Below, in pieces: positions 5,547 to 31,759 of a DNA stretch of 64,000 bases (position 1 is its first letter; every line of letters begins with the position of its first letter). The notes beneath the pieces are model-generated. The model did not search any database. It was not told where the DNA came from and saw only the letters and a list, made by a program, of their open reading frames with translations. The translations under genes and the position numbers were made by a program. The DNA comes from an uncultured Ectothiorhodospiraceae bacterium. Lineage in GTDB: Bacteria; Pseudomonadota; Gammaproteobacteria; UBA6429; Thiohalophilaceae. The stretch lies in contig CAMYJG010000015.1 in assembly GCA_947258695.1 (NCBI GenBank), positions 12,956 through 76,955 on the forward strand, read 5' to 3'.

Positions 5547-7262
5547 CTACTTAAACCAAGCGGCTAAATCTTTATCCGAAATTTGATGATAACAATGCTT
5601 AACTTTATCCAGGCCAAGACTTTCTAAACCACGCAGTAATGCATTCCAATCAGATGGATTATCACTGAACTCATCTTCTACAATAATATCGAGCAAAGTA
5701 CTTTTAAAATCGGTATCACCATTCTCGATACGATTTATATAAAGTTCGACACATTGTTTAAGTTCAGAAACATTTAATAGAGACGGTACCTGGCGTAACA
5801 TAAGTTCATTTTCACCCAGGGTCGAAAATTCAAAACCTAACCTTTTTAAACCCGCATGATTTTGTTCTAACCATGCTACTGCATTTGATTTTATATTCAC
5901 GCTAAATGGAATAAGTACCGGTTTAGAAATCAAATGTTCTTGTTCAGACAAGGCAGTTTCAAGCTGTTGCTGTAGTAATAGTTTTCGACAATCAGTTAAT
6001 GCAAACGCTAACAAACCCTGGTTGTTTTGAGCCAGCAAGTAATTATTGTTTACTCTGGCTAACGCTATGCCAAGAGGCTTATTTAAATCGTCATTACCCG
6101 CTAAACTTTGATAGGCAGAAGCATAAAGCGCATGAGACTCAGAAACGGAATTAGTAAAAGAAGAATTATATGATGTAGACTTAAATTCAGACGATGCGGT
6201 AGCAGCAAACTTATTGCTTGGATACTTATTATCACCTATTTGCTCACTACCTGCCTGTTGTGACAATGCTTGACGTAAACTATAAAATAAAAAATCATGA
6301 ATTAAACGACTTTGCCGGAAACGTACTTCATGTTTTGTTGGGTGTACATTGACATCAACCTGCTCGGCATCCATTTCTAGCTGTAAAACATAAACAGGAA
6401 AACGTCCCGGGTAAATCATATCCTGAAAAGCCTGGCGCACTGCATGCGTGATCACTTTGTCTCGAATCATACGGCCATTAACAAAGAAGTACTGCATATC
6501 CGACTGGCTACGTGAATACTCTGGCTTTGCTAACCAACCTGTTAATTTTAAACCGGCATTTTCAAAATCAAGTTTGACCGCGGCCTGGATAAACTCTTTA
6601 TTAATTAGTCGTGTTAGTCGTTGCAACTTACTTTCATATGAATCAGCAACCGGTAAAGAAAAAATCTGGCGCTGGTTATGCCTGAAAGTAAAAGCCACAT
6701 CAAAACGCGCTAGTGCTAGCCGTTTAACCACATCTTCGATATGTCGATACTCAGTACGTTCAGCTTTTAAAAATTTTCGTCTTGCCGGTGTATTATAAAA
6801 AAGATTATTCACTTGCACCGTTGTTCCCTGGGGATGGGAAGCCGGTGTTAAATCGAACTGGTCTTCTTTTGTTTTAATACTCCAGGCCACATCATCATAA
6901 AAGGAAGTTAATGTCAGTTCACTAACCGATGCGATACTTGCCAGTGCTTCACCACGAAACCCCATGCTTACAACATGAATAAGATCATCTAATGAACTAA
7001 TTTTGCTGGTAGCATGCGGGCTCAGTGCCAGGGCAAGTTCATCTTGGGGGATACCATAGCCGTTATCCCTGATACGGATTAATTGTGTACCGCCAGCCTG
7101 GATATCAATATCAATTTGGGTTGCACCCGCATCCAGACTATTTTCCAGTAACTCTTTAACAACAGAAGCCGGACGTTCGATAACCTCGCCGGCAGCAATT
7201 TGATTGGCCAGTTGCGTTGAGAGTTGTTGAATAGATGTTCTGGGTTTTGTCATTGCATGCAT
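5547..7262 (-). CDS. mutL: DNA mismatch repair protein MutL
   Basis: 571 residues, a little shorter than E. coli MutL (615). The GHKL ATPase domain (about 1-220) has ENSLDAGATQI, DNGYGIP, ATSKI and GFRGEALASI. The transducer domain carries FVNGRMIRDKV and VDVNVHPTKHEVRF. A poorly conserved Ser/Asn-rich linker (about 335-400) leads to a C-terminal dimerisation domain. I do not see the DQHAxxERxxxE endonuclease motif, so this is the nickase-less type that works with MutH (or another nicking partner). Met-1 (7262) and Met-4 (7253) are both possible starts; neither has a clear Shine-Dalgarno. Confidence 0.97.
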   Translation of the reverse strand: MHAMTKPRTSIQQLSTQLANQIAAGEVIERPASVVKELLENSLDAGATQIDIDIQAGGTQLIRIRDNGYGIPQDELALALSPHATSKISSLDDLIHVVSMGFRGEALASIASVSELTLTSFYDDVAWSIKTKEDQFDLTPASHPQGTTVQVNNLFYNTPARRKFLKAERTEYRHIEDVVKRLALARFDVAFTFRHNQRQIFSLPVADSYESKLQRLTRLINKEFIQAAVKLDFENAGLKLTGWLAKPEYSRSQSDMQYFFVNGRMIRDKVITHAVRQAFQDMIYPGRFPVYVLQLEMDAEQVDVNVHPTKHEVRFRQSRLIHDFLFYSLRQALSQQAGSEQIGDNKYPSNKFAATASSEFKSTSYNSSFTNSVSESHALYASAYQSLAGNDDLNKPLGIALARVNNNYLLAQNNQGLLAFALTDCRKLLLQQQLETALSEQEHLISKPVLIPFSVNIKSNAVAWLEQNHAGLKRLGFEFSTLGENELMLRQVPSLLNVSELKQCVELYINRIENGDTDFKSTLLDIIVEDEFSDNPSDWNALLRGLESLGLDKVKHCYHQISDKDLAAWFK

Positions 7263-12151: not shown

Positions 12152-12745
12152 TTAGTCGCGATCATAGCCACGACCTTTTTTACCCCGGTCATCGTCTTCC
12201 TCGTCACCAAAAAAACCACCCTTTTTAGGTCGATCTTTCTTTTTATAATGCTCTTTATTTTCATATCGCTCTTTATTTTTATAATATTCTTTCTTTTTAT
12301 AACGCTCTTTTCCTTCATCACCAAAGTACCCTTTTTGCTGATGGTGTTGATACCTTTTACTTTTTTTATACTTACGTTTGTACTTATGATTTTTATATTT
12401 ATTTTTATGATATTTATGCCTTAAATAAGGGCGTGTTTCTTCCATCTCGATTTCAACAAACCCACTGTGCAAATGATGGCGCAAGCGGACAGGCAAGGTA
12501 ACAGAGAAAGACCACTGGCCATGATTATCCAGATAAAAATACATGTTACGCCCAACATCAAAATAAAATTCTGCGTTAGGGTAATAATGATACATATGAT
12601 GACGCCGCCCATGAGCAAGTGCATGAGGGGGAGGTGCATGATGTGCATGAGGAAAACCGGCTTCTAGCCTGATGCCGCCACCCACATTATGACAGCCAGT
12701 AAAAATTAAAACACCCAACACACAGAGTAATGCAACTTTCTTCAT
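12152..12745 (-). CDS. His/Lys/Tyr-rich putative lipoprotein
   Basis: 197 residues. The N-terminus MKKVALLCVLGVLIFTGC is a lipoprotein signal with Cys-18 as the acylated residue; the -3 Phe is not ideal. Residues 30-55 are histidine-rich (HAHHAPPPHALAHGRRHH), then comes a short beta-like segment (YPNAEFYFDVGRNMYFYLD). From about residue 110 the chain is very rich in Lys, Tyr and Asp, with the near-repeat GYFGDEG / GGFFGDEED. Possible metal or polyanion binding, purely by composition. No family recognised. The tail can vary without harm in such proteins, so frame errors there would be hard to see. Confidence 0.7.
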   Translation of the reverse strand: MKKVALLCVLGVLIFTGCHNVGGGIRLEAGFPHAHHAPPPHALAHGRRHHMYHYYPNAEFYFDVGRNMYFYLDNHGQWSFSVTLPVRLRHHLHSGFVEIEMEETRPYLRHKYHKNKYKNHKYKRKYKKSKRYQHHQQKGYFGDEGKERYKKKEYYKNKERYENKEHYKKKDRPKKGGFFGDEEDDDRGKKGRGYDRD

Positions 12746-30859: not shown

Positions 30860-31759
30860 ATGAAATCACTTCTTTCCATTTCATATAATTCAGATGCATC
30901 AAAAAGCAGGGCCACTGAGTTTGCCAAAACGCACGGGTATCCTTGTGTTGCAGATACTGAAGTTACTACAACATTAAAACTCCATTACACTGACGACAAG
31001 GTTGAACTTTGTGATCTGGAAAAAGAGTTTTGTATCGATATCGATTTCATAGCCGGGAACCTTGCTCATCGCCAACAATATGGCGGGGGGCGCGGCCAGA
31101 GTATCGCTAAGGCAATAGGTTTAAAACAAGGGCTAGCGCCACCTTCAGTTTTAGATGCCACTGCCGGATTAGCCAAAGATGCCTATGTTCTCGCTTGTCT
31201 GGGTTGCCGACTGACATTACTTGAACGTTCACCGGTTATTGTAGAACTCATCAACGACGCTATCGAGCGTGCAAAAGAAAATGAACACTTTCAGAAAATC
31301 ATTGATCGTGGTTTTAATGTGATTGCAAATAGTAGTATCGATTACCTGACCGAACTTTTTCAAAAATCAAAAGATAATCTGGCTAAGAAACGGTTACCGG
31401 AAGATATCTACCCTGATGTTATCTACCCTGATGTTATCTACCCTGATGTTATCTACCCTGATGTTATCTACCCTGATGTTATCTACCCTGATGTTATCTA
31501 CCCTGATGTTATCTACCTGGACCCTATGTACCCCGACAGAAAAAAATCTGCCTCGGTTAAGAAGAACATGCAGATATTGCAAACATTGTTAGGTAAAGAT
31601 GAGGATACTGAGGAACTTCTCAACATCGCACTCAAGGTAGCTAAAAAACGCGTAGTCGTAAAAAGGCCCAAGGGTGCAGAAAATTTATCCTCAATAAAAC
31701 CTACCTACCAGGTCAACAGTAAAAAAACCCGCTACGACGTGTATATTATTAAAAGCTAA
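30860..31759 (+). CDS. rsmJ: 16S rRNA m2G1516 methyltransferase with inserted repeat
   Basis: 299 residues, against about 250 usual. QYGGGRGQSIAKAIGLKQG, VLDATAGLAKDAYVLACLGC and LLERSPVIVELINDAI are the RsmJ SAM-binding motifs. The catalytic motif YLDPMYPDRKKSA is at about residue 219. Directly before it the sequence YPDVI is repeated seven times (residues 184-218, DNA 31409-31513). Homologues have a single copy there, of the type PQVVYLDPMFP. RsmJ methylates N2 of G1516 of 16S rRNA. Frame and downstream motifs are intact, so the gene is likely functional unless the long loop hinders the active site. Confidence 0.93.
   Translation: MKSLLSISYNSDASKSRATEFAKTHGYPCVADTEVTTTLKLHYTDDKVELCDLEKEFCIDIDFIAGNLAHRQQYGGGRGQSIAKAIGLKQGLAPPSVLDATAGLAKDAYVLACLGCRLTLLERSPVIVELINDAIERAKENEHFQKIIDRGFNVIANSSIDYLTELFQKSKDNLAKKRLPEDIYPDVIYPDVIYPDVIYPDVIYPDVIYPDVIYPDVIYLDPMYPDRKKSASVKKNMQILQTLLGKDEDTEELLNIALKVAKKRVVVKRPKGAENLSSIKPTYQVNSKKTRYDVYIIKS
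31409..31513 (+). repeat. Tandem repeat, 7 identical 15-bp units in rsmJ
   Basis: Seven exact copies of TACCCTGATGTTATC, in frame, each encoding YPDVI. Exact identity between units indicates recent slippage or active turnover. Confidence 0.98.

Follow-up and report, generated by a model that had tools for sequence, protein, structure and literature searches.

RESULTS

The tandem repeat lies in a gene for RsmJ

The window analyzed here, a stretch of 64,000 nucleotides, contains on its plus strand an open reading frame of 299 amino acids (positions 30860 to 31759) that was identified through Pfam, NCBIfam, and structure matches as rsmJ (PF04445, SAM_MT/RsmJ). The encoded protein scored 252.8 bits against PF04445, above the curated cut-off of 26. 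Its score against the NCBIfam RsmJ equivalog NF008012, a model with which this protein alone was scored, was 198.4 bits, below the cut-off of 422, perhaps because that model is narrow. The predicted structure resembled the known 16S rRNA m2G1516 methyltransferase RsmJ (YhiQ; PF04445; 2oyr, 2pkw, 2pgx, 2r6z) in both whole fold and motif. These structures were the best matches by far, with Z scores of 28.4 to 29.1 (2pkw, Z of 29.1 and rmsd of 2.2 over 246 aligned residues; 2oyr, Z of 28.9) and of 22.2 for 2r6z, compared with 13.9 for the next row; matches ranked under the YhiQ rows reflected the common methyltransferase fold. All 14 invariant columns of a 25-row RsmJ alignment were retained, the DPM[YF]P motif and the other invariant residues included, and the conserved YLDPMYP motif (residues 219 to 225; plus strand, 31514 to 31534) was unaltered. 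In relatives from the same genus, matches to deaD, the glycosyltransferase gene, htpG, and other genes of the window were found next to rsmJ wherever the compared locus reaches them. The gene is firmly a member of PF04445 and is called RsmJ by fold and motif only; the family match, fold, and alignment bear out the identity proposed in the initial annotation, with the NF008012 match below its cut-off.

Positions 31409 to 31513 on the plus strand consist of seven perfect copies of the 15-bp unit TACCCTGATGTTATC, which encode (YPDVI)7 (residues 184 to 218) in frame with the surrounding gene and directly ahead of YLDPMYP, exactly as first read from the sequence. TRF reported this array at 31405 to 31517 (period of 15, 7.5 copies, 100% matches, score of 226) as the top of its four rows in the window. 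A search of the 3,215,845-base draft genome for the unit, allowing at most one mismatch, returned seven matches, every one inside the array, while the reversed unit used as a control returned none. Chance is thereby excluded, as are copies of the unit at other genomic sites and a mobile DNA element. With perfect units, a period that is a multiple of three, and a position within an open reading frame, the array is an in-frame coding tandem repeat (minisatellite). The 15-bp length of the unit keeps the reading frame, and the identity of all seven units at the DNA level implies that the expansion is recent or has been homogenized. Directly upstream (plus strand, 31394 to 31408) lies a weak candidate for a further unit, LPEDI, identical to the repeat at 10 of 15 bases by hand count. 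Read by eye, it resembles the first units of two-unit relatives (CPDVI, NPDVI, and CSDII), and it could be an ancient eighth unit, first in the array, that has since diverged. An overlapping gene was ruled out, the array being covered, besides rsmJ, by short mechanical open reading frames (62 amino acids on the minus strand and 58 on the plus strand) that are unsupported.

For comparison, 464 kb of the 3.2-Mb genome (14%) was scanned with TRF, yielding 23 rows. Two other perfect short-period arrays with at least five copies were present in this sample, both of 9 bp and in frame: 6.3 copies encoding (AST)6 in a CheW/LysM protein (L076:9139-9195) and 5.9 copies encoding Asn-Lys-Arg repeats in a TonB-like protein (L074:6444-6496, minus strand). 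Such expansions are therefore not unique to rsmJ. Both 9-bp arrays fall outside the Pfam domains matched in their proteins; the rsmJ array, the highest-scoring short-period array in the sample, is the one of the three within a compact enzyme fold. The scan also returned an 85-bp unit present 3.1 times at 98% identity (L061:7256-7522), with no open frame of 60 amino acids across it. Elsewhere in the window, an imperfect 18/36-bp array (12230 to 12310) lies in an open minus-strand frame that reads as a protein tail rich in Lys, Tyr, and Glu.

The repeat lengthens a loop ahead of strand beta4

An AlphaFold model of the seven-unit protein was built with 25 orthologues (mean pLDDT, 87.5). In this model, a helix (residues 159 to 177) is followed by coil and then by a strand (residues 217 to 220) that starts within the last repeat unit and leads into YLDPMYP. 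Residues 190 to 206 lie in coil with a pLDDT below 50, while most of the remaining fold is confident. The six spare units are thus modeled as a low-confidence, floppy coil between the helix and strand beta4. The predicted fold of a two-unit relative (G007; pLDDT, 90.0) was the same, with a closely similar order of elements.

The length of this segment was measured in the alignment from the threonine at the helix end (T164 of the window's protein; alignment column 182) to the aspartate of the DPM motif. It spans 56 residues in the seven-unit protein, 16 to 23 in the four two-unit rows, and 9 to 16 in the 20 single-unit rows, so that strand beta4 is preceded in the seven-unit protein by about 40 residues more than in single-unit RsmJ proteins. 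An expansion of the catalytic loop, as had been proposed for the array, is ruled out by the model together with the alignment, which place it upstream of the motif in the loop between helix and beta4. The strands of class I methyltransferases carry the active site at their C-terminal ends; an insertion before a strand should therefore fall on the far side of the fold. With the array modeled in a loop of variable length and its last unit always supplying the strand, folding of the enzyme and methylation of G1516 should both be preserved.

Copy number varies among related species

A search at the level of the order gave 40 genomes, all from the same family. PF04445 was found above the cut-off in 10 of them, namely, six of eight genomes of the source organism's own genus (g1) and all four of genus g14. 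These are 2 of the 18 genera in the family; the other 30 genomes seem to be without rsmJ, one of them (G029) having a weak, sub-threshold PF04445 match. Five of the 10 rsmJ-bearing genomes have at least two units: the source genome (G000) has seven, and G004, G006, and G007, of the same genus, and G035, of another genus, have two each. The remaining five (G002, G005, G020, G031, and G060) have one. Apart from the residue that opens unit 1, the two units of G007 are identical at the DNA level, the first unit of G004 has diverged to CSDII, and in G035, whose rsmJ is split between two contigs near the repeat, two units are present on both contigs. Homologues had initially been thought to have a single unit equivalent, which does not hold for these four relatives. 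The proposed variation in length did emerge between species, with 1, 2, or 7 units in related genomes, one genome being counted per species. The differences in length between species are genuine and have arisen more than once.

In a broader draw from the class, the motif was found in 104 of 369 genomes by a pattern that misses motif variants and sites with G at the first position, and a YPDVI tandem occurred in G000 alone and in none of the other 103. The draw included three further members of the family, and these lacked the motif by the pattern used. In one genome (G332), two adjacent units just upstream share 12 of 15 bases, perhaps from another old duplication or by chance.

A tree was calculated from 25 RsmJ proteins with the repeat columns left out. 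This tree requires three switches between the one-unit and several-unit states, and at least two are forced by well-supported branches because G035 groups with one-unit genes of its own genus. Within the genus of the source organism, branches are weakly supported (bootstrap values of 59 to 91% on several), and several distant rows are very long-branched; one gain plus a loss is therefore not separated there from several gains. The end branch of the seven-unit row (0.17) is comparable to those of its four nearest sisters (0.16 to 0.26), indicating no acceleration. Between units 1 and 2, G006 shows two silent changes, G035 shows one, G007 shows none once the initial residue of unit 1 is set aside, and G004 has three amino acid changes. 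Selection on unit 1 is thus not consistently indicated. The two-unit state in G004 is old enough to have diverged. By eye, the likeness of the relatives' first units to the LPEDI segment suggests that the ancestor had two units and that the second was amplified in the G000 lineage.

DISCUSSION

The rsmJ array is a long and striking example of an ordinary, known kind of element, the in-frame coding tandem repeat. We consider it likely that a two-unit ancestor was amplified to seven units with fold and methylation kept and with nearly neutral effect. The ancestor of the genus probably had two units (x-PDVI-YPDVI) ahead of the motif, the second of which would have been raised to seven copies by replication slippage or by unequal recombination between copies. 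Throughout, the last unit would supply strand beta4, and the spare copies would lengthen the variable, duplication-prone loop. Slippage or recombination fits the perfect units, the frame-keeping period, and the length-tolerant loop. The expansion itself was most likely nearly neutral, and RsmJ activity should have been retained. MutS and MutL are both encoded in the genome, which rules out absent mismatch repair as the cause; the window that holds the repeat also contains mutL (minus strand, 5727 to 7232). Exogenous protein synthesis is reduced in an existing E. coli rsmJ knockout strain (PMC7056703), suggesting that some loss of activity would be tolerable in E. coli. Among the papers listed by searches of the open PMC literature, none mentions tandem repeats in rsmJ in its title or the opening of its abstract.

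It is unlikely that the array is instead a tunable contingency locus, in which frequent changes in copy number would adjust RsmJ, m2G1516 would vary within the population, and selection would keep the array. The perfect units, the in-frame period, and the occurrence of 1, 2, and 7 copies in related species would all be expected of such a locus, and there are precedents. The E. coli tolA repeats are likewise in frame, coding, and variable in copy number among related genomes, and they alter stress tolerance; their contractions are RecA dependent and can take place at 6.9e-5 (PMC3477136). Tandem-repeat insertions also diversify the KPC beta-lactamase, like RsmJ an enzyme with in-frame insertions (3 to 84 bp), which are attributed to slippage (PMC12593533). 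The tolA units are each unique in sequence and come with a demonstrated phenotype and dynamics, whereas the rsmJ units are perfect and lie inside a compact enzyme domain; the KPC insertions arise under drug selection, whereas rsmJ has seven copies and no known selection. However, the spare copies are modeled as a disordered loop ahead of the strand and outside the motif, the two-unit state persisted long enough for divergence in G004, and the modification seems dispensable in the 30 of 40 family genomes that lack rsmJ at the Pfam cut-off.

Neutral slippage alone leaves one observation unexplained: unit duplications cluster in one family, being found in 5 of its 10 rsmJ genes and in none of the other 103 motif-bearing genomes of the class sample. 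A more novel reading is a recurrent duplication hotspot in the family, with an internal 15-nucleotide spacing (Y-P/L-D in PDVIY-LDPMY-PD) seeding slippage and the loop kept through an altered contact with the 30S subunit, making RsmJ tunable; this seems quite unlikely. Among 108 single-unit sequences, the 33-base motif region has a self-identity of 0.46 at offset 15, where most offsets give 0.18 to 0.27, and offsets 9 (0.39) and 20 (0.49) are also high. As a seed for slippage, the spacing in single-unit genes is only suggestive.

It is very doubtful that the seven copies are an artefact of assembly and that the actual number of units is lower or higher. In favor of such an error, the draft genome comprises 164 contigs, short reads cope poorly with perfect tandem repeats, and the rsmJ gene of G035 is broken near its own repeat. 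However, four relatives have two units at the same site, and tandem repeats are usually collapsed, not expanded, during assembly. Reads of 150 bases can span a 105-bp array, although the read type behind this assembly may differ. Finally, decay of rsmJ, with expansion tolerated since the enzyme no longer matters, would agree with the patchy presence of the gene in the family but is highly improbable given the open frame, the 14 of 14 invariant columns kept, the ordinary end branch, and the gene neighborhood kept within the genus.

A compact rRNA-modifying enzyme here carries a segment of 56 residues where its relatives have 9 to 23, the added length coming from residues at the beginning of a core strand that were duplicated several times. 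The array offers a natural test of how far a Rossmann-fold methyltransferase tolerates insertion into a loop. If copy number did prove to tune activity, the array would represent a novel way of regulating rRNA methylation.
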